Shown: piece by piece, positions 1,975-13,311 of the stretch | Layout: each line of letters starts with the position of its first letter | How positions within the stretch are numbered: position 1 is the stretch's first letter | Assembly: GCA_017546785.1 (NCBI GenBank) | Contig: JAFYRW010000042.1 | Span: forward strand, 1 to 64,000 | From: Bacteroidaceae bacterium | GTDB lineage: Bacteria > Bacteroidota > Bacteroidia > Bacteroidales > Bacteroidaceae | Reading direction: 5' to 3' | DNA: 64,000 nt | Program-made: the position numbers and the translations under genes | Notes under the pieces: generated by a model | What the model was told of the DNA's origin: nothing | The model's input: only the letters and a program-made list of their open reading frames with translations | The model's database searches: none

Positions 1975-4005
1975 ATGAAGAAATTTTTACTTTCGTTATT
2001 TTCGCTCTTTGCTCTTGTGGGCATTGTGAATGCCGAGACTTACACACACGAATTTGCCAAAGATGATTTTGCTCTTACAGGCGGAAACACAACTCTCGGC
2101 GATTATGCGTGGACATCGACAGGAGTCGCTCTTTTGGGTGATGTGAATGCAAAAGGATTGCAGATTGGAGACAAGGACAATCCTGTAAGAACATTTACGC
2201 TTACAACCTCTGCTTTTGACAAATTCATAATCAACAGCATTACAGTAAATACATCTACAGCAGCAAATGCTGTGGCAACAATGAAAATTGCCGTAGGCAG
2301 CACCGATGAGACATTTACCTTGAAAAGTTCGGCTACCGACTATACTCTTACCTGCGATAAGGCAACCGGTAACATTGTAATAAGCTGGGAGCAGCCCGAA
2401 ACAAATAAGGCTCTCTATGTAAAATCAATTAAAATCGACTATGCACTACCAGCCTCTATGGTAGAGGTTGCTACTCCTGTATTTAAGACTCCCGAGGGAA
2501 TATACCCCGATGAAGTTACAGTAGAGGCCGAGACTGCAACATCAAATGCTGGACTTTACTACACTATCGATGGCTCAGAGCCCAGCTATGAGGATTATCA
2601 GGCGGGAGGTTCTACAATGCGCAGCGGTTATTATGTAATGTACAAGAAGATAACAAGCTCTGCTACCGTAAAGGTAATTGCTGTTCTCGAGGATGGTGGA
2701 CAGATATATTCAAGCAGTGTAGCCGAGGCTACATACGTTATTGAACCCAGCGTAGCATATGTTCTTGCCGATAAAGTAATCTCGGGAAAATCATACGGCA
2801 TCATCGCCGGCGACACAATTGCTGTTTCCGCAACCGAAAATGCCGAGAGCGGCTCTCTGAAAGCTGTTAAGGCGACAAAGGGTAACGGATGCTACAAGAG
2901 CATTGACGACAATGCCTTTACAGTTACAGAGGCCAATGGCGGTTACACCATTCAGGATTCTTATGGCAGTTATCTGTATATGAAGAACGACGGTTCCAAT
3001 AAATTCTATTTTGCAGATGAGCAGCCCGCGAGTGGTGCAGTGTGGTCAATCTCCTTCGACAATAATATGTATGCGACAGTAAAAAATACATTGTCGTCAA
3101 AGGTTGTCTATTATTCTATTGAGAATGCTGCATTTGTCTGCTATTCTGCTACCGAGGCAACAGAATCAATGATTCTACCTAAATTGTATCTTATGGGACA
3201 GTTCCCCGAGTATACAATTACTCCCGCTGCAGGAGAAGAGGTTGAGACCTTCCAAAAGATAACCATTACCTCTCCCACAGGAATAAAGGCTACAGACAAT
3301 CTTGTTGTAAATTACAACTATCAGAAGGATATGACTGTTGTTAAGGTAGATGATAATACATTAGAGATTAGCCTCGATACTCCTGTTACAACAAAGGACA
3401 ATATGACTGTCTTTATCTATTTTAATGGTTCTATCCTGCTCGATCCTAACGGTATAAACGTTCCTATGGATATTGCAAAGAACCGTATAATGTATACAAT
3501 TACAGGTGAGGCTCCTCCCGCAACAATTGTAAGCGTTACTCCTTCGAACAACTCAAAAGTGGAGTCTCTCTCATATTTCTTGTTTGCCTTTACAAAAATC
3601 TGTGTAAAGAACGATGATGCCACAATTGTTCCCCTGTTGTACAAGGAGGGAACAACCGACTATATTGCTGTTGAGTTTACTACCGACAAGGAGGATGGTA
3701 GCGGCAAGGTAAAAATGGATGAGGCTGCAATAAAGGTTTCCGAAAAGGCTGTTATTGAGAATGGTACATATATCCTCGAGATTCCCAAAGGATATTTTAT
3801 AGATAGCAACGGCCGTGAGGTAGCAGCAACTACTCTTAAGTATACAGTAGAGAATGATTTTGCTACTGCGGTAGAGAGCGTCGATACCGAGAAGGAGTTT
3901 TTGGTTGTATATTCTGTTTCGGGTACAAGAATGAATGTTGCCTCTTTGAATAATCTTCCTAAGGGTCTATACATTGTAAATGGTGTAAAGACATTCGTAA
4001 AGTAA
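1975..4005 (+). CDS. Secreted protein with chitobiase-C-type domain and type IX-like C-terminal tail
   Basis: The 676-residue product starts with a clear signal peptide (MKKFLLSLFSLFALVGIVNA, cleavage near residue 20). Around residues 163-210 is a segment with YYTIDGSEPSYEDY, typical of the CHB_HEX_C (FN3-like) domain. The rest is beta-rich, with Ig-like stretches near 480-640. The last about 35 residues (VVYSVSGTRM...LPKGLYIVNG...FVK) look like the Bacteroidota C-terminal tail related to type IX sorting domains: a VYxxxGxR strand, then LPKGIYIVNG, then a basic end. No catalytic motif is visible. It is probably a surface or exported adhesin/binding protein. It is monocistronic, with a strong hairpin terminator at 4057-4099. 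Confidence 0.75.
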   Translation: MKKFLLSLFSLFALVGIVNAETYTHEFAKDDFALTGGNTTLGDYAWTSTGVALLGDVNAKGLQIGDKDNPVRTFTLTTSAFDKFIINSITVNTSTAANAVATMKIAVGSTDETFTLKSSATDYTLTCDKATGNIVISWEQPETNKALYVKSIKIDYALPASMVEVATPVFKTPEGIYPDEVTVEAETATSNAGLYYTIDGSEPSYEDYQAGGSTMRSGYYVMYKKITSSATVKVIAVLEDGGQIYSSSVAEATYVIEPSVAYVLADKVISGKSYGIIAGDTIAVSATENAESGSLKAVKATKGNGCYKSIDDNAFTVTEANGGYTIQDSYGSYLYMKNDGSNKFYFADEQPASGAVWSISFDNNMYATVKNTLSSKVVYYSIENAAFVCYSATEATESMILPKLYLMGQFPEYTITPAAGEEVETFQKITITSPTGIKATDNLVVNYNYQKDMTVVKVDDNTLEISLDTPVTTKDNMTVFIYFNGSILLDPNGINVPMDIAKNRIMYTITGEAPPATIVSVTPSNNSKVESLSYFLFAFTKICVKNDDATIVPLLYKEGTTDYIAVEFTTDKEDGSGKVKMDEAAIKVSEKAVIENGTYILEIPKGYFIDSNGREVAATTLKYTVENDFATAVESVDTEKEFLVVYSVSGTRMNVASLNNLPKGLYIVNGVKTFVK

Positions 4006-4163: not shown

Positions 4164-4191
4164 GAGCCTCTTGCCGTTAGGCAAGAGGCTC
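4164..4191 (-). terminator. Terminator of the SusCD locus
   Basis: Perfect 12-bp GC-rich stem (4164-4175 with 4180-4191) with loop GTTA, 19 bases past the stop of the minus-strand gene ending at 4210. On the minus strand it is followed by TTTTCTTT. Confidence 0.75.
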
Positions 4192-4209: not shown

Positions 4210-4785
4210 TTATTTGCTCTCTTCTGCTTTCTCGATAGCTTCCTTAAGCTTGTTTACGAACTTGTTGGCATCGCTCACCGCTCCAATAATTTTGCATACC
4301 TCTGTTCCATCGGGGTTAAGAATAAGATAGGTGGGGTAAATATCTATTTTGTATCTGTCCTTAATAATATCTCCCTCTCCCTTCTCTATGTCTTTGGATA
4401 TACATACAAAGTTTGAATTCAAATAGTCACCACACTCTTTACTGGGGAATATATTCTTCTCCATCATACGACAAGGGCCGCAATTCTCGGTGTGACAGTT
4501 GATAAATACTCTTTTGCCCTCTTCTGCAGCCTTGTCAAAAGCATCCTGCAACGTCAAATATTGGAATTTGGTGACATATTTAGGATTGGTACTCATTTCC
4601 ATTATAAGCTCCTTTTTTTGTTCAGGCTTCATATAACGGCTATAGTATCGTCTCAAATAATTGCCTTTAGACTCTTGTATTGTCTGCTTGCTGTCCAGCT
4701 TGTTATCGTAGCTCTCTATTGGCTCCTGATTACTGCACGCGCACATTGCTACAGCAAGGATAACAAGACTTTTGTTTATTCTCAT
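4210..4785 (-). CDS. Thioredoxin-fold lipoprotein (CGPC)
   Basis: The 191-residue product has a lipoprotein signal peptide with lipobox MCAC (modified Cys near residue 16-18). A thioredoxin fold occupies about residues 80-185. The redox motif is ENCGPCRMM, a CxxC with the classic thioredoxin GP pair, and the cis-Pro strand reads DIYPTYLI. The layout resembles the thioredoxin_7/DUF255-like periplasmic family. It is the last gene of the SusCD-type operon, 7 bases after the TlpA-like gene, so it may reduce or isomerise disulfides in partners of that locus. It probably faces the periplasm from a membrane. The substrate is unknown. Confidence 0.8.
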   Translation of the reverse strand: MRINKSLVILAVAMCACSNQEPIESYDNKLDSKQTIQESKGNYLRRYYSRYMKPEQKKELIMEMSTNPKYVTKFQYLTLQDAFDKAAEEGKRVFINCHTENCGPCRMMEKNIFPSKECGDYLNSNFVCISKDIEKGEGDIIKDRYKIDIYPTYLILNPDGTEVCKIIGAVSDANKFVNKLKEAIEKAEESK

Positions 4786-4792
4786 ATGCTGT

Positions 4793-5902
4793 TTACTTAT
4801 TTATATTCTCTATAATAATCTCTCGCAGTCTATCGCCGGGCGATGGGGCGTAGGCTGTTATTATGTATCCCTCTTTGTCTATTATAATGTATCGCGGTAT
4901 TCCTGCGATATTATATTTGTCCTCAAATTCAGAGAATCCGTCGCTACCTGTAATAAGGTTGGTCATTTCACCCATCGACTGTTTCTTCAATGTCTCAATC
5001 CACAAATTCCTCTTTTTATTGCGGTCGATAGAGAGTGTGATGAATTCTATTGACCCGTTTCCTGCAAATTCGTCGCGTATCTTCATATATTCGGGCATCT
5101 TTGCAAGGCAGCTGCTGCACCACGTTGCCCAAACATCTATTATCAGCATTTTCCCTTTGAACTCCTCTAATGTGCGTATATTTCCTTTGGTATCCTGCAA
5201 CTGCGCTTGTGGGGCTTTTGCTCCATCCATTATGGGAATATACTTTTGGTATAGTTCAAGAATATCGTTTTTCAGCGGGCTCTCGCACACATTGCTCTCT
5301 ATGAGTGGCAGAATATCGTAAAGCCCTTTTGTGCAGCCGCTGTTGCGGAAAGGGAATTTAAGCTTTTCGAGAAAGGCGCTGTGTAGCTCATTGTTCTTGT
5401 ACGAGAATACCTCGCGTAGTTTAGTATAGTCGTTGCTGTTTATGGGGCGTGCAGGGAAGAATACTGTTATTGTAAGGCCGTCGCGTGCAGCGTCGAAACT
5501 CTCGCCTCTTCCCATTGCTCGCAACATAAAATAGTGGTCGGCGAATCGTGTGATCTCTTTTGTCTGTACAAAATCTTGTACGGTGGCATTATCGAACGAC
5601 AATGTATCGACAATTTCGGCAAGCTGATATAAATCCTCGTTCTTTCCCTTGCTCTTTAGGGCATATTCTCCTCCCCACCATATAAGATGACATTTGTTCT
5701 TAATGGCCGCCTCCTTGTCTCTTTTGCCTATCTGCAACTGAATATCGTCGTATGTCGCTCTAATCTCGTTGGCATTGGTGTATGTGGCATTGCTCCACAA
5801 TTCATCGACAGGGACGGGTGGAGTCTGTGCACAAGCAATAGTGAACAACATTGTCAATGTTGCCGCAAATGTTATTATTCCTATTCTTGCTGTTGAATAC
5901 AT
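4793..5902 (-). CDS. TlpA/ResA-like thiol-disulfide oxidoreductase
   Basis: I place the start at the ATG at 5902 rather than an earlier in-frame ATG at 5941. It is preceded by AGGAGT at good spacing, inside the end of the upstream gene, and it gives a proper signal peptide (MYSTARIGIITFAATLTMLF...). The product is about 369 residues. The N-terminal 210 residues are a helical domain as in many Bacteroidota TlpA-family proteins. The C-terminal thioredoxin domain (about 230-365) has WATWCSSC as the redox site and GIPRYIII as the cis-Pro strand. A Cys within the signal region (TIAC) could make it a lipoprotein. It follows the metallohydrolase-like gene by 4 bases and precedes another thioredoxin-fold lipoprotein. 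Confidence 0.82.
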   Translation of the reverse strand: MYSTARIGIITFAATLTMLFTIACAQTPPVPVDELWSNATYTNANEIRATYDDIQLQIGKRDKEAAIKNKCHLIWWGGEYALKSKGKNEDLYQLAEIVDTLSFDNATVQDFVQTKEITRFADHYFMLRAMGRGESFDAARDGLTITVFFPARPINSNDYTKLREVFSYKNNELHSAFLEKLKFPFRNSGCTKGLYDILPLIESNVCESPLKNDILELYQKYIPIMDGAKAPQAQLQDTKGNIRTLEEFKGKMLIIDVWATWCSSCLAKMPEYMKIRDEFAGNGSIEFITLSIDRNKKRNLWIETLKKQSMGEMTNLITGSDGFSEFEDKYNIAGIPRYIIIDKEGYIITAYAPSPGDRLREIIIENINK

Positions 5903-5906
5903 TGGG

Positions 5907-6947
5907 TTACTCCTCTGTTTTATTTTGAGGGCCATTGGCAATGCCTAAAAGCTTTATGCCATACTTATTCAACATATGATTCACTACAATTTCGCGCTTC
6001 TCCTTTATCATAGGATATTTGTCCGAGGGGTAACGCCTCTCGAACTCCTCGGGAGTCTGCCATATGATATTCTTTATATATGTAGTGAAGAGATTATAGT
6101 CGGGATATTTGTTCTTCTCCCAATAGTAGCTACTAGTTAAAATGTCGTTTGGCCATACTTGTTTCTTTGGTCCTGTACCAAAATTGTCGTTTATTCTATC
6201 GACAAAGCCCAATTTGTATTTGTAGTTATCTTTTGTGGGGTCGTTGTTGTCTATTTTTTGATCTACGCTGAAATTGAATCCATACCAGAATTCATCGGGT
6301 GAGTCAATATCTCCCTTGTCTATTGCATTCTTTATAATCTCTAGAATAAGAATACAGCGCATCTGTCGTAGAGCATACTCCTGTTCTTTCCCCTCTTTAG
6401 ATGTTACAATGTCCAAACTAACAGCCCAACTATCGAATGTTCCGAGTTTAATAGATTTATGAGGGTCGCTATTGTCTGTTCCTGAACTACTATTCTCCTC
6501 GCCGTAGTCTCTTGGTTCGGTGCGTAGACCGTTAATCATATAAATCTTTACAGGGAGAGCGCTGTTTGCAATCTCCTTGCTGATATTGTCGAATATATGA
6601 TTGTTGAAAAAGTCTACATACAGTGGCAACTGATCTGCTGGAAGGTCCCAGCCAATGTCTCCAATCTCTCGGTCCTCTTCGTCGCCTGCTACATAAATGT
6701 CGCCTGTACCAGTAGAGACCCAGTCTCGGTTAAGGTCCTTCTCGTTTATACCTTTATATATAAGGTATACGTCATACTTGTTTTTTATATTATTGATTAT
6801 GCTGTCGAGCTTACTCTCACCCTGTGGGAATCCTCCTCTGATTGGAGAATAATCGCCTGACGGTGTAATCTCCTCTTCGTTGTTACAAGAAACAGTCGCA
6901 AAGAGAGCCGCTGCAGCCATTATTGCCGTGAAGATATATTTTTTCAT
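5907..6947 (-). CDS. Metallohydrolase-like SusCD-associated lipoprotein lacking HExxH
   Basis: This 346-residue lipoprotein (lipobox TVSC, Cys21) sits directly after SusD. Its architecture resembles the substrate import-associated zinc metallohydrolase lipoproteins of Bacteroidota. It has an N-terminal helix (LDSIINNIKNKYDV), a central region, and a C-terminal end with IKNIIWQTPEEFERRYP and then a long helix ending NKYGIKLLGI. Where that family has its HExxH helix this protein reads QMRCILILEI (about residues 195-204), and no HExxH occurs anywhere. If the family call is right it is a pseudoenzyme or binding protein. The family assignment is by recollection of the pattern and is less sure than the absence of the motif. 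Confidence 0.6.
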   Translation of the reverse strand: MKKYIFTAIMAAAALFATVSCNNEEEITPSGDYSPIRGGFPQGESKLDSIINNIKNKYDVYLIYKGINEKDLNRDWVSTGTGDIYVAGDEEDREIGDIGWDLPADQLPLYVDFFNNHIFDNISKEIANSALPVKIYMINGLRTEPRDYGEENSSSGTDNSDPHKSIKLGTFDSWAVSLDIVTSKEGKEQEYALRQMRCILILEIIKNAIDKGDIDSPDEFWYGFNFSVDQKIDNNDPTKDNYKYKLGFVDRINDNFGTGPKKQVWPNDILTSSYYWEKNKYPDYNLFTTYIKNIIWQTPEEFERRYPSDKYPMIKEKREIVVNHMLNKYGIKLLGIANGPQNKTEE

Positions 6948-6961
6948 TTCTCTGTCTTTTT

Positions 6962-8524
6962 TTAGTTATAAAATGTCTCGGGTGCGCGATTCTGTGGCAG
7001 CTCATTCTGTTCGAGCTTGCTGTTCATATCAATAGCCTCCTGAGGTATAGGAACAGTGTACATAAGGTCGTTCTTCTCCAATTTGTAGGTACTCCTCTTG
7101 TTTGTTTCGTCGTACCACGTATGAGTAATCTCGGGCATACCCCAACGGCGTAGGTCGAACCAGCGGTGTCCCTCAAAACATAGCTCACGGCGACGCTCGT
7201 CACGGACAAACTCTATAAGTTCCTCTTGTGAACCAAAAGAGTACTCTTCAAAATCCTGAGGGTCGAAACGCTTGTAACCCAAAGCATTTAATGCTTCGGT
7301 AGCTTTTAAAATGCTGTCTCCACCAATCATAGCCTGTGCCTCGGCATAGTTGAGGTATGCTTCGGAGAGACGTAGGCAGCGTCCGAATGTTCCTGTTTCC
7401 TGCAATGGCAGGTAATATTCCTGTCCAATATTCACCTTGCCGTATGCCATTCGCATAGTGCTGTTGCCATAGGGAGCATCTACAATGTATAACTCCAGAC
7501 GTTTGTCGTAGTCTACGAAAGTATTTAGTAGACTCTCAGATGCCTTAAAGTATGAGTGCATCTTGTTCTTGTTCTCGTCCTCTTTGTTTGCGCCATAATA
7601 ACTCCATTGGAACATATCTTCGATATAACCGTAGGGCCATATTGTTTCGCTGCAGTTGTAGGTGGGATATACAGGGTAGTTGCGGACTATTACACCATTC
7701 TCGTTCTTTGTCTCGTGTACTATTGTGTTAAGGTCGGTTAGGGCGAAACGTTTGTTGTCCATTACCATTTTGGCATATCTTGCAGCTTCCTCCCATTTTT
7801 CCATATATAAATATGTGCGTGATAGCATCAACTGAACCATAGGAAGGCTGGTGCGGAAATTATCACTCCATTGCTCGTTTTCGGGCATTTCAAGATAAAT
7901 CTCCTCGGCTGTGTGTAGGTCGTGGAGAACCAGCAGATATACCTGCTCGACGCTTTTACGCATAAGGTAGTCGAGATTAGGCTCAATGCCGCTGTGCAAC
8001 TTCAAAGGAACGCCTAACGCATATTTGTTATAGTTGTATGGTTGGCCAAAGATATTTACAAGGTTAAAGTAGTAGAATCCGCGTAGTGCGTATGCCTGTG
8101 CCTTTACATTGTCTATATTCTGTTTGGTGTCTGTCACCTCGGGAATGTAGTCGAGTACCGCGTTTGCTCCTTTAATAAGCTTGTAGTAGCTCTCGTAAAT
8201 GTTGGTGTGTCCCGATGCGGCCTTTTCCATCATATCAAACATATTGGGCTGCCAGCTGAAACTCGCAAGATATTTGTTTCCGTTGAATCCTGCTATTGGC
8301 TTTTGGTAGGGGGTAGCCTCAATGTCATCCTCCATAAGATTCAAAAAGATATTGAATCCCGAAATATCGTTTCGCTGATAGGCCTCACCTAAAAGCAGCT
8401 CGTTAAGCGATACTGCATCTTTGGGCACAAATTCGCTTTTTGAATTAGGCTCAAGAAAGTCGCCGCAGCTTATAAATGATAGTGCTGTAACAATAAACGC
8501 TATTGTGATATATTTGAATTTCAT
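6962..8524 (-). CDS. SusD/RagB-family nutrient-binding lipoprotein
   Basis: The start is set at the ATG at 8524, which begins a proper lipoprotein signal peptide (MKFKYITIAFIVTALSFISC); an in-frame start at 8563 would add 13 unlikely residues. The product is about 520 residues, usual for SusD. Family marks include the N-terminal CGDFLEP after the lipidated Cys, a helical TPR-like core (AQAYALRGFYYFNLVNIFGQ) and the C-terminal signature FVRDERRRELCFEGHRWFDLRRWG. It should sit on the outer surface as the lid of the SusC transporter encoded just upstream. The ligand cannot be read from sequence; the absence of glycosidases beside it argues against a classic polysaccharide locus. Confidence 0.95.
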   Translation of the reverse strand: MKFKYITIAFIVTALSFISCGDFLEPNSKSEFVPKDAVSLNELLLGEAYQRNDISGFNIFLNLMEDDIEATPYQKPIAGFNGNKYLASFSWQPNMFDMMEKAASGHTNIYESYYKLIKGANAVLDYIPEVTDTKQNIDNVKAQAYALRGFYYFNLVNIFGQPYNYNKYALGVPLKLHSGIEPNLDYLMRKSVEQVYLLVLHDLHTAEEIYLEMPENEQWSDNFRTSLPMVQLMLSRTYLYMEKWEEAARYAKMVMDNKRFALTDLNTIVHETKNENGVIVRNYPVYPTYNCSETIWPYGYIEDMFQWSYYGANKEDENKNKMHSYFKASESLLNTFVDYDKRLELYIVDAPYGNSTMRMAYGKVNIGQEYYLPLQETGTFGRCLRLSEAYLNYAEAQAMIGGDSILKATEALNALGYKRFDPQDFEEYSFGSQEELIEFVRDERRRELCFEGHRWFDLRRWGMPEITHTWYDETNKRSTYKLEKNDLMYTVPIPQEAIDMNSKLEQNELPQNRAPETFYN

Positions 8525-8579
8525 AGTCTGCTGTATTATAATCTTCGTGAATTCCTGTAACAACTGCTTTATTCAAATT

Positions 8580-11500
8580 TTAGAATCCTACGCTCAATCC
8601 TAACGAATAGATTCGGGGTTGTATTGTTGCGCCAAGCTCAGGGTCGTATCCTCTCCACTCTTTGCTGGCAATTACAAAGAGGTTGTTCACATTACCGCTG
8701 AATTGTATGCGCGACAATCCTATCTTTTTGCAAGCCTTCTGCGGCAGATTGTAGGAGAGTGAAATTTGTGTACAACGCAGGAACGATGCGTCGGCAACTC
8801 TTGCGTCCGATTGTGCCCACATTGAATAGATATTATCGAATCGTCCGTTGGGTAGCCACAAATTGTATAGGTCGCGTACCGATGTATATAGCGCCGGAAT
8901 ATTTGTTATCTCCTCGTCTCCGGGCTTTTCCCATCTGTTGAGCAACTCATTTGACAGATTCTTGAAAATATCGGGCATCTTTCCGTTGGAGAATGTCGAA
9001 TAGGGGTTGGGCAGACGTTTCTTTGCACCCAACATTAGTGCAAAGTCTACTCCTAAATGGAAATTCTTGTAGCGCAGACGGGTGTTGAGACCTCCCGAGA
9101 AGTCAGGCTCGCTCTGTCCCGAATAAACCAGGAATGTTGTGGGGTCTACGCTGCCGTCTCCTCCTTGATCCTCGACAGTCGCTCCCTTAATTATGGGGTA
9201 ACCGTTGGTGCCGTCGAGACCTAAGAATTTATAGGACCAGAATGCAGTAAGAGGGTAGCCGTTCTTTAGCGGACGGTCGGTGTTACCATTCAGGAAGTGA
9301 ATGTGGGTAAGCTCGTCGGCCTTTACTATGCGGTCGTCGTCCATTGAACGGTTCCAGTTCTTTCCGGCATTAAGTCCTACGGTCCACACCCAGTCGTTTG
9401 TTCTGATAGGGGTAAAGTTTATGGTAGCCTCAATACCGTCGTTCTTTATTATAGCACCATTCAACGGCATTGACTTTATACCATATTCCAAAGGAAGATC
9501 TTGACGTACGATGGCATTTGATGTTCTGCCGTAGTACTCTAGGTTCATTGTAATTCCAAAGAGTGCAAGGTCGAGTCCTAAGTTCCACGTTTTTGTACGC
9601 TCCCATTTTAGCTGTTTATTGGGGAGGCTCGATATTGTAAGGTAATACTCGTTGTAACCCTCGTATATACCTTTGTATTGTACAATCATTTCGGGGCTTA
9701 TCGAGTTTACGACATTACCCTGAATACCGTATGTCGCACGCAGGTTCATCTGGTCGAGCCATTCGAGTTTCTCTGCAACAAAGGGCTCTTGTGCAATCTT
9801 CCACGATGCTCCGAATGACCAGGTGGGGTCGAACTGCTTGTTAACATCCTGACCGAAGCGGTTCGAGGCATCGGAGCGCACGTTCATATTTATAACGTAA
9901 CGGTTCATTAGAGAATATGCTACTGTTGCAAAGAATGACATATAATTTGTCAATGTAGAGCTTTTGCTCCAGGCAGCACTCTCGTACAGCTGTTCCAATA
10001 CTCCCCATCCAATGCTTGTGTCGCCACCGATAGGCTTAAAATTCTCAGGGACAGTAGGTAGTACGATAATCTCTCCACGCTCGGGAACGTAGCCCCACAC
10101 AGTATTGCTGTCGCTCTCTCCTGTGCTTGAACGAACCTCCATTCCTAACATTGCATTCAGACGGTGATTCTCGTTGAATTCTTTGCTGAATTGTAAACGA
10201 TGAGAGGTACTATATGATACCGACTGAGAGTTTGACTGTTTAAGTTCACCACCGTAGGGTATAAGCGCTGCATTGAATTTGTCGGAGCCAGCCTTCTCGC
10301 TACCATAAGCGTAACCACGGTAGAGTCTCTCTATTATAGCAGTCTTTTCTCCAGCGAAACTCTCGCTCTTGTTTGTGCTCAATGACGTACTTGCTGTTCC
10401 CGAATATGTTAGCCACGGAAGAATCTTGTACGATACGTTAGCCGAAGCATTGAACATTGTTCCTACGTTCTTGGAGAAACTATTCTCCATCTCATTGAAA
10501 ATATTGTATGAGTATTGGTTCTTACTTCCCAAATGAGCATTGTAGCTGTATTGGTAATACTGAGAATAGTATACAGGATCGTTGTTGTTGAAACTGTCGT
10601 AAGCCGGAATAGCGCGGCTGGTCTCCATTGCGTATGAGTAGGGGTTTACGCCGGCACCGTATCCGTCGGAGTTTCTTATGCTACCATTCAATTGAACGTT
10701 GATGCTCAATTTATTGTTTACCTGACTGTTAATGCTTAAACGCGATGTTAGCTGATTATTCTGGTTGCCAATCTCATAGCCCTGATTGTTGGAGTAACCG
10801 ATTGAGGCGTTGTATGTGTTTTTGTCGTTACCTCCCGATACACTAAGATTATGGCTGTGGCTGAATGCGTTGCGTGTCAAGAGGTCGAACCAGTCGGTGT
10901 TTACCGTCTCGAGTCGCTGCATATATTCAGAAAAATCCTCTTCGCTTATCATACGCTTGTTGAACATCGCCATAAGTCCCTCGTAGGTATATACCTGTGG
11001 CAGAGGGTCTGTTTGGTAGCGTACTCCAGCTTCGTATGCCTCTTTGCTGAACTGTATACGCTCCAATGAGTTCATAAAGTCGTAATTGCTGTATGTGGGG
11101 CGTCCCTTTATAGAGAAGTTAGAATTGTAATTTACACTGACACGTCCGGGAGTGCCTTTTTTAGTGGTAATTACAATTACACCATTCGAAGCTTTTGAAC
11201 CATATATAGCAGTAGCCGAAGCATCTTTCAATACTGTTATATTCTCTATATCCTGAGGGTTCAACCACGAAATTTGGTTACCGATAAGCTCACGCATATC
11301 AGATGTGATAGAGGAACTCATATCAATAGAGAGTGCGTCCTCTTGAATTACACCATCGACAACCCATAGAGGGTCGGAGTTTCCTAAAATTGTAGAGGTT
11401 CCGCGAATTTTTATCTTGGGTGATGAACCTACACGCGCTGATGTGTTTACTACATTAACTCCGGCAATTTTTCCTTGTAGCATCTGATCGACACTTTGGT

Positions 11501-11939
11501 AGGCCGGCATCATAATGTCGTCGGCTTTTACAGTGGTAAAAGCTCCCACCATATCTTTGCGGGGTAATTTGTTGTATCCGTCTTCTACAATAGTAACCTC
11601 TTCGAGAAGCTCTTCTTCGGGCTCTAACTGAACCTTCATCGGGGTTAGGCAACTCTTGTCGTTGAGTTTTATTTTCTTTATCTTCATTCCGATAAAAGAA
11701 AATACCAACTCCTTGTCATCGTCAAGGTTGATATTGAGCTTGAAACCACCAGTGATATTGGTACTTGTTCCTTTGGCTGTACCAGACTTTGTTGTTATGG
11801 CTACTCCTGCTCCGGGCAGAGGTTCTCCAAATTCGTCAAGAACAGTACCGGTGATAAACATTCCATTCTGTGCATATACCATAAAACCGCACAGTAGGCA
11901 GATAAAGAAACTTATGAGTCGTAATGTCGTCTGTCTCAT
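8580..11939 (-). CDS. SusC/RagA-family TonB-dependent outer-membrane transporter
   Basis: The 1119-residue product has a signal peptide (ending VYAQ), a carboxypeptidase-regulatory-like domain (about 28-105, GTVLDEFGEPLPGAGVAI), then a plug domain with the SusC signature KIKIRGTSTI and DPLWVVDGVI. The TonB-box region precedes the plug, and the 22-strand barrel closes with a final aromatic strand (SLGLSVGF). It imports a TonB-energised substrate together with SusD, whose gene starts 55 bases downstream. Length and layout are normal. A probable promoter lies at 11995-12025. No sigma/anti-sigma or hybrid two-component regulator is encoded next to it. Confidence 0.95.
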   Translation of the reverse strand: MRQTTLRLISFFICLLCGFMVYAQNGMFITGTVLDEFGEPLPGAGVAITTKSGTAKGTSTNITGGFKLNINLDDDKELVFSFIGMKIKKIKLNDKSCLTPMKVQLEPEEELLEEVTIVEDGYNKLPRKDMVGAFTTVKADDIMMPAYQSVDQMLQGKIAGVNVVNTSARVGSSPKIKIRGTSTILGNSDPLWVVDGVIQEDALSIDMSSSITSDMRELIGNQISWLNPQDIENITVLKDASATAIYGSKASNGVIVITTKKGTPGRVSVNYNSNFSIKGRPTYSNYDFMNSLERIQFSKEAYEAGVRYQTDPLPQVYTYEGLMAMFNKRMISEEDFSEYMQRLETVNTDWFDLLTRNAFSHSHNLSVSGGNDKNTYNASIGYSNNQGYEIGNQNNQLTSRLSINSQVNNKLSINVQLNGSIRNSDGYGAGVNPYSYAMETSRAIPAYDSFNNNDPVYYSQYYQYSYNAHLGSKNQYSYNIFNEMENSFSKNVGTMFNASANVSYKILPWLTYSGTASTSLSTNKSESFAGEKTAIIERLYRGYAYGSEKAGSDKFNAALIPYGGELKQSNSQSVSYSTSHRLQFSKEFNENHRLNAMLGMEVRSSTGESDSNTVWGYVPERGEIIVLPTVPENFKPIGGDTSIGWGVLEQLYESAAWSKSSTLTNYMSFFATVAYSLMNRYVINMNVRSDASNRFGQDVNKQFDPTWSFGASWKIAQEPFVAEKLEWLDQMNLRATYGIQGNVVNSISPEMIVQYKGIYEGYNEYYLTISSLPNKQLKWERTKTWNLGLDLALFGITMNLEYYGRTSNAIVRQDLPLEYGIKSMPLNGAIIKNDGIEATINFTPIRTNDWVWTVGLNAGKNWNRSMDDDRIVKADELTHIHFLNGNTDRPLKNGYPLTAFWSYKFLGLDGTNGYPIIKGATVEDQGGDGSVDPTTFLVYSGQSEPDFSGGLNTRLRYKNFHLGVDFALMLGAKKRLPNPYSTFSNGKMPDIFKNLSNELLNRWEKPGDEEITNIPALYTSVRDLYNLWLPNGRFDNIYSMWAQSDARVADASFLRCTQISLSYNLPQKACKKIGLSRIQFSGNVNNLFVIASKEWRGYDPELGATIQPRIYSLGLSVGF

Positions 11940-12111: not shown

Positions 12112-13311
12112 TTACAGCCTAATATCTATTTTAGCAGGGAATGCGTATCTGGGGTCTTTCTTTTTATTTATGCTCTCGTATATATTTGCAATATTTCTTT
12201 TTGCCTTTCCTTTGAATATCCTTTTGCCTTTGTAAAATATTTTTATTGGTTTTTTAAGGTCGAACATTGTGTCGTTAAGGTATATTGTGATATTGGAGTA
12301 GTGACTTTTTGTTATGTGAATCTCGTTGTTATTGCGCTCAATGATAAGCTCTTTGCCGTGTGCGGCCTCGCGCTGCGGAATTTCTACCCAATATAGACTG
12401 TTGCGCAATACCTGCTCTTGACGCCATACAATTTTTTCGGGGTAGGGGTTACGCTTGTATCTTGTCATCCACGAAAGGGCGGCGCTGTCGGCAAGTTCCA
12501 TCCAATGTCCTTTTCCCTCTATTATATTTGTGGAGTGAATATAGCCCTCGGGGTCATTAGATTGCAACGCATCCATTCCTTTGCCCTTCTCAATGGCAAG
12601 ATTGTTGCGGTTATATGCTGAATCGAATTCTCCCATCCATATCATAAAGGGGAGATTCCTGAGATTTATTTGTGATGTGCCACCAGGATGTCCTGCCATC
12701 ATCGATGCTGCAGCCCAACGGTCGGCCATACGGGGAGCCATACGCCACACACCGTCTCCTCCGGCTGAATATCCCATAAGATATACCTTGTCGGGGTTCA
12801 CATTCTCGAATACTATGCAGGCTGTTATAAGGTCTTCAAATAGATCATCGAGCCCTTTTCTGTGCCAAAGGTCCCAACTGTTCCACGGTGCGCGTGGAGC
12901 AATGTATACTCCCTCTTTGGGCTGGTAAAGGTATATCTGATTCATCCATTGTTCGTCGTTTACCTCTTTGGGGCATTCTCCTCCACCGTGCATCGAGATA
13001 AAAAGTGAACGGCCATCCGATGGTGTGCGTCCAAAATCGCGGACGGCACAAGCCAATCGCAATGAGTCATTGCTTATGGTCAATCTTCTCCACGAATTAT
13101 GCAGTCTCTCGGCATTTTCTGCTCTCCAAAGAGAATCTATTATGGCTGTTGCCTCCAGAGCCAGCTCCTTGCTTATCTTTTTCTTTGCGAATGTCTGCTC
13201 CGATAGCTTACCAGACGGCTCTTTGAGCCACTCTCTCAACTCATTTGTCTGTGCGTTGAGGCCACAGACGATTGCAATTGCAAAAAACGCAATTGTAAGG
13301 AATTTTCTCAT
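12112..13311 (-). CDS. Secreted alpha/beta-hydrolase, esterase/PHB-depolymerase-like
   Basis: This 399-residue product has a cleavable signal peptide (ending GLNAQ). It has an alpha/beta-hydrolase fold with HGGGE as the oxyanion-hole turn and GYSAGG as the nucleophile elbow (catalytic Ser near residue 185). A likely acid lies in MGEFDSAYN and the His in EGKGHWM, so the triad appears complete. An N-terminal helical segment of about 90 residues precedes the fold, and a basic beta-rich extension of about 90 residues follows it. It would act in the periplasm or outside on esters or peptides. It lies 14 bases after mgtE on the same strand and 172 bases before SusC, so it may be partly co-expressed with the SusCD locus. 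Confidence 0.78.
   Translation of the reverse strand: MRKFLTIAFFAIAIVCGLNAQTNELREWLKEPSGKLSEQTFAKKKISKELALEATAIIDSLWRAENAERLHNSWRRLTISNDSLRLACAVRDFGRTPSDGRSLFISMHGGGECPKEVNDEQWMNQIYLYQPKEGVYIAPRAPWNSWDLWHRKGLDDLFEDLITACIVFENVNPDKVYLMGYSAGGDGVWRMAPRMADRWAAASMMAGHPGGTSQINLRNLPFMIWMGEFDSAYNRNNLAIEKGKGMDALQSNDPEGYIHSTNIIEGKGHWMELADSAALSWMTRYKRNPYPEKIVWRQEQVLRNSLYWVEIPQREAAHGKELIIERNNNEIHITKSHYSNITIYLNDTMFDLKKPIKIFYKGKRIFKGKAKRNIANIYESINKKKDPRYAFPAKIDIRL

Follow-up and report, generated by a model that had tools for sequence, protein, structure and literature searches.

Most characterised SusCD systems import glycans, and some of their loci lack enzymes. Two SusCD systems, RagAB of P. gingivalis (PMC7782687) and BT2261-64 of B. 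thetaiotaomicron (PMC11817032), bind peptides. A further kind of SusCD locus carries a lipoprotein of family TIGR04549; one such locus in Riemerella, made up of SusC, RagB and a TIGR04549 metallohydrolase, is up under iron limitation, by 3.1 to 3.8, which we take as log2 values (PMC5429918). Bacteroides caccae has a putative zinc metallopeptidase of solved structure (4L7A) that is close in sequence (E 4e-83) to one of the TIGR04549 proteins, which are named 'substrate import-associated zinc metallohydrolase lipoprotein'. TlpA/ResA-type domains, for their part, often serve envelope folding, redox upkeep and cytochrome c maturation.

Here we describe a SusCD locus with components of these kinds. 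It lies in a 64,000-nucleotide stretch of DNA from a Bacteroidaceae bacterium (the window), whose genus consists mostly of uncultured ruminant-hindgut Bacteroidaceae MAGs. On balance, with odds somewhat better than even, we read it as a RagAB-like SusCD importer of cysteine-containing (disulfide-linked) peptides that has its own periplasmic thiol-disulfide reductases.

Results

Operon layout

A sequence-only reading of the window had described a five-gene run on one strand, with short gaps and one terminator. An open reading frame check agrees, placing the five genes on the minus strand in the order SusC, SusD, lipoprotein (LP), TlpA-like protein and CGPC lipoprotein:

8580..11939, minus strand: SusC/RagA-type TonB-dependent transporter, 1119 aa (TIGR04056; Plug, CarbopepD_reg_2 and barrel domains)
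6962..8524, minus strand: SusD/RagB-type lid lipoprotein (PF07980, PF14322, lipobox)
5907..6947, minus strand: LP, surface-type, predicted pseudo-metallopeptidase (4L7A fold, TIGR04549 kin, without HExxH or conserved His)
4793..5902, minus strand: TlpA/ResA-type thiol-disulfide oxidoreductase (Pfam, model, 27/27 loci)
4210..4785, minus strand: small Thioredoxin_7 lipoprotein with CGPC (PF13899; periplasm-type lipoprotein signal)
4164..4191, minus strand: strong intrinsic terminator at the operon end (12-pair stem, loop of 4, TTTT tail)
1975..4005, plus strand: 676-aa secreted protein with a CHB_HEX_C-type domain (PF13290), a conserved downstream neighbour, convergent here

Two starts in the mechanical list appear too early. 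For SusD, the signal peptide and the relatives favour ATG 8524 over the listed TTG 8563; for TlpA, ATG 5902, 4 bases past the LP stop codon, is the likely start over TTG 5941. With these starts the genes do not overlap, and the gaps from SusC to the CGPC gene are about 55, 14, 4 and 7 bases. Matches to a Bacteroides-type promoter (-33 TTTG / -7 TAnnTTTG) are no more frequent in the window than in shuffles, and none usable lies 5' of SusC. As the sequence-only reading had stated, there is no glycosidase: Pfam finds no glycoside hydrolase domain in the five genes and the two flanking genes scanned, which therefore lack the carbohydrate-active enzyme that defines a polysaccharide utilisation locus.

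SusC scores 669 bits against TIGR04056 (cut-off 368), and the adjoining SusD scores 92.9 bits against PF07980 (cut-off 23.1) and 69.2 bits against PF14322, as a SusCD/RagAB importer should. SusD has a lipobox of the CGDFLEP type, as in all 27 relatives. The nearest solved SusC chains are 8ypu/8ypt (E 8e-112); RagA and BT2264 are farther from the window's SusC (E 1e-50 and 2e-36).

In 24 genus loci the gene for the 676-aa protein borders the operon; it shares the operon's strand in 19 of them and is inverted in 5, the window among these. The C-terminal end of its product resembles, by eye, a type IX secretion tail. Directly 5' of susC on the same strand (12112-13311) is a secreted alpha/beta hydrolase with a GYSAG motif and a weak PHB-depolymerase-like match, conserved in 12 of the 27 loci.

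Conservation in the genus and beyond

A SusD ortholog is present in 28 of 41 genus genomes, one of them on a contig fragment, leaving 27 loci, the window's included, for comparison. SusC, SusD, LP and TlpA are kept in every one of these loci found through SusD, although in one (L015) the ORF filter missed LP, which tblastn recovered in the overlapping locus L007. Gene order kept in 27/27 loci makes the unit more than chance, in line with the earlier view of it as one system.

The CGPC gene is optional in the genus. It is separate in 14 of the 27 loci, fused to TlpA in three (L050, L052 and L056), a remnant in one, absent from eight, and undecided in one that reaches the contig end (L063). The expectation that two thioredoxin genes would travel with SusC is therefore borne out for TlpA and fails for the second CxxC protein. 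On a SusC+SusD tree the fused genus copies form one clade (support 1.0), and CGPC losses fall at several places. The remnant (L016, G020:C30) lies between tlpA and the gene for the 676-aa protein and has lost the half with the active site.

In Butyricimonas synergistica (L127) the five genes are complete and in the window's order, and preceding them are genes that by eye resemble those for an ECF sigma factor and its anti-sigma factor. A second Butyricimonas has TlpA fused to the small thioredoxin-fold protein (Trx) independently of the genus fusion, so that the SusC+SusD tree implies two independent fusions. A Muribaculaceae isolate genome has the order SusC-SusD-LP-Trx.

The window's genome carries a second SusCD locus (G000:C35, 2868-9333; L202), in which genes for DUF4843, PKD_2 and, in tandem, three TlpA-type proteins come after SusCD; the same arrangement occurs in a genus relative (L205).

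The lipoprotein resembles a metallopeptidase that has lost its site

LP has no family match at cut-off in Pfam or NCBIfam, and a PDB sequence search was also empty, so that it is placed only by structure and profile comparison. An AlphaFold model (AF2, built on 26 relatives; pLDDT 78.5) matches 4L7A (4l7a_B) with a VIA Z of 12.0 over 219 aligned residues at rmsd 5.0, and with a Foldseek E of 3.5e-4; comparison rows with Z up to 5.7, within what the tool calls common, were set aside. Profile-profile alignment (hhalign) also links LP to TIGR04549 members: E is 1.5e-6 when genus copies alone are used and falls to 8.2e-19 once distant copies are included. The TIGR04549 model itself does not match LP up to E 1 and has 0 matches in the window's genome. 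HExxH is missing from 26/26 aligned genus copies, among which no His column reaches 80% conservation.

By modelled fold and by motif, LP is a pseudo-metallopeptidase: it has the fold of 4L7A, and it falls short of the TIGR04549 class at the NCBIfam cut-off and at the HExxH zinc site. The sequence-only reading of the third gene as a pseudo-metallohydrolase is upheld, as a structural resemblance with no family match. LP is probably a catalytically dead, repurposed member of a peptidase fold already known to be linked to SusCD. We claim no residue-by-residue replacement of HExxH, since the helix register differs between the two profile alignments. An invariant Cys198 was considered for a role at the lost HExxH site and rejected, as that position is Asn in the Butyricimonas copy whose locus has the TlpA-Trx fusion. 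Butyricimonas LP copies (L127:8001-9425 and L128:7989-9086) also carry long Gly-Thr repeats in one loop, of more than 100 residues in L127.

Two thioredoxin-fold proteins and their likely location

The TlpA-like protein is above the PF08534, PF00578 and PF13905 cut-offs. Its model (pLDDT 90.6) aligns over residues 234-382 with 4ka0_A at a VIA Z of 21.4, and WCSSC and the cis-Pro P349 are conserved, which together with the thioredoxin fold make it TlpA/ResA-type. Its N-terminal domain is all-helical, has conserved Cys84 and Cys203, and matches no Pfam family above cut-off. The small protein is a Thioredoxin_7 member (PF13899, 47.8 bits against 27) with CGPC and cis-Pro P151, and CxxC is kept in 14/14 separate copies; it is not assigned to the DsbH disulfide reductases (NF043050), scoring 34.1 bits against an equivalog cut-off of 190.

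Location was read from the number of acidic residues at positions +2 to +6 behind the lipid Cys, since in Bacteroidetes such signals target lipoproteins for surface export (PMC5080379). SusD and LP have 2-4 such acids (means 2.15 and 3.08), and the export-type signal is found in 26/26 LP copies; TlpA and Trx have 0-1 (means 0.48 and 0.43), and two TlpA copies have no lipobox at all. These signals suggest that SusD and LP are at the cell surface. With the acidic signal weak or absent, and the lipobox gone in two TlpA copies, both thioredoxin-fold proteins are probably periplasmic.

Distant loci carry peptidases and thioredoxin-fold genes

The LP profile picked up more copies in other families, again with LP immediately behind SusD. 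We counted by hand 21 such loci outside the genus, including one (L147) whose LP no longer adjoins its SusCD, apparently because of an insertion: on G287:C10 (L146/L147), ~14 kb of mobile-element-like genes seem to split an operon related to the window's between SusD and LP. Thioredoxin-fold genes occur in 17/21, and 3 of the remaining 4 loci have a peptidase (S8 or met-zincin). The sequence-only reading had staked its case on homologous SusCD pairs not mostly lacking thioredoxin genes; these counts, with TlpA throughout the genus and in Butyricimonas, go its way. Peptidases adjoining LP in distant loci are of the S8, aspartyl, DUF5117/DUF4953 met-zincin, S9, S41 and M16 kinds. Some are joined to thioredoxin domains: L145 encodes a Trx-DPPIV-S9 protein, L017 a Trx-DPPIV protein that runs off the end of the locus, and L144 a fusion of Trx with an aspartyl protease-like part. 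Both the peptidases and these fusions support the earlier suggestion that the accessory genes point to peptides. Among the genes scanned in these loci there was no glycosidase and none of the usual metal-uptake genes.

In the distant genome G287, 23/46 SusD genes are followed within 6 kb by a Trx gene on the same strand, whereas 2000 random relocations gave a mean of 2.3 and a maximum of 9; as G287 is one genome, chosen for carrying LP, this is not a phylum rate. Many Trx-bearing SusCD loci in G287 are without LP, and the one scanned has DUF4843 and PKD_2 proteins instead.

Discussion

Import of peptides with reduction of their disulfides is our best reading of the locus because RagAB and BT2261-64 bind oligopeptides and the sister loci carry peptidases. 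The peptide substrate, the reduction of cargo, the source of electrons and the cellular locations are steps of the model that we infer. LP would sit on the surface; with its metal site lost, its likeliest role is to bind or present substrate and not to cut it. TonB-dependent transport through SusC would bring the substrate in. In the periplasm, TlpA, and in many species also the small CGPC protein, on its own or as part of a TlpA fusion, would then reduce cargo disulfides with electrons from the cell's single DsbD; each of four genus genomes checked has one dsbD gene. Reduction would let peptidases encoded elsewhere finish the cargo. The sequence-only reading had suggested that disulfide reduction is part of uptake, which is not supported as written: since both thioredoxin-fold proteins look periplasmic, reduction would follow translocation and not occur at the surface. 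Against peptide import we count that the operon has no peptidase gene in the window's genus, that the peptidase-bearing sister loci are distant (LP ~20-27% identical), that the CGPC gene is repeatedly lost, and that induction of the Riemerella locus by iron limitation fits metal uptake too.

That induction speaks for a different cargo, in which case SusCD would import an iron, haem or copper carrier and the CxxC proteins would release or handle the metal or a thiol ligand. The haemin-binding HBP35 of P. gingivalis also carries a thioredoxin motif (PMC2907840), although both it and the Riemerella proteins are other proteins than the window's. LP lacks a conserved His, and the genes scanned in the sister loci include peptidases in place of the usual metal-uptake genes; we consider a metal or haem carrier unlikely. 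We rate as similarly unlikely that the thioredoxin-fold proteins act on no cargo and instead serve folding or redox upkeep, be it of the importer or of other proteins of the envelope (cytochrome c maturation included). Such work is common for TlpA/ResA-type domains, and SusC does have two invariant cysteines, C1056 and C1070. These are predicted, from strand order judged by eye, at opposite ends of one strand plus turn, however, and apart from the lipid Cys SusD and LP each have a single invariant cysteine, which makes upkeep of importer disulfides less likely. The association of thioredoxins with particular SusCD loci and peptidases, and their fusion to peptidases, also speak against upkeep.

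An ordinary glycan or glycopeptide locus, with its enzymes elsewhere and the thioredoxin genes as passengers, would have precedent in the glycan cargo of most characterised SusCD systems and in their enzyme-less loci, and the CHB_HEX_C-type domain of the 676-aa protein would suit it. Passengers, though, would hardly be kept in every genus locus, fused independently and enriched over a random null, and the genes scanned in the distant LP loci include no glycosidase; this explanation strikes us as the least probable of the three.

Returning to peptide import, each component is of a known kind, and we did not find the combination described as a conserved class, or its pseudo-metallopeptidase, in the open-access literature searched. 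No description of SusCD loci with TlpA/Trx turned up there; older subscription work on a P. intermedia thioredoxin locus, a 2007 paper cited in PMC10434189, lies outside that scope. It is tempting to speculate, at chances a little short of even, that these loci form a widespread, undescribed Bacteroidales class of 'reductive peptide import', in which SusCD works with a surface lipoprotein of pseudo-metallopeptidase type and with periplasmic reductases of its own, peptidase-fused in some relatives, to take up disulfide-stabilised peptides. If true, such peptides from the host, the diet or other microbes could be digested or disarmed by reduction. An LP-fold lipoprotein and Trx/TlpA after SusD would then flag importers likely to handle disulfide-bearing peptides and set some SusCD systems apart from the glycan importers as which they are mostly read. 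This would provide a testable case for gut Bacteroidales feeding on, or resisting, disulfide-rich peptides.

Comparison with known systems

The window's SusC/SusD pair belongs to the same superfamily as those of RagAB and BT2261-64, two systems for which oligopeptide binding is known; extra lipoproteins lie alongside BT2263/64. LP is like the TIGR04549 lipoproteins (4L7A, 9URD) of SusCD loci in fold, lipoprotein nature, position directly after SusD and C-terminal region, and unlike them in having no HMM match, no HExxH and no conserved His. In TIGR04549 loci a ~430-aa lipoprotein-like protein follows, whereas here the thioredoxin genes take that place. TlpA shares the thioredoxin fold and WCxxC with the Bacteroides TlpA/ResA-type oxidoreductases 4KA0, 4GRF and 3FW2, and differs from them in its N-terminal helical domain with Cys84 and Cys203 and in being tied to a SusCD operon.
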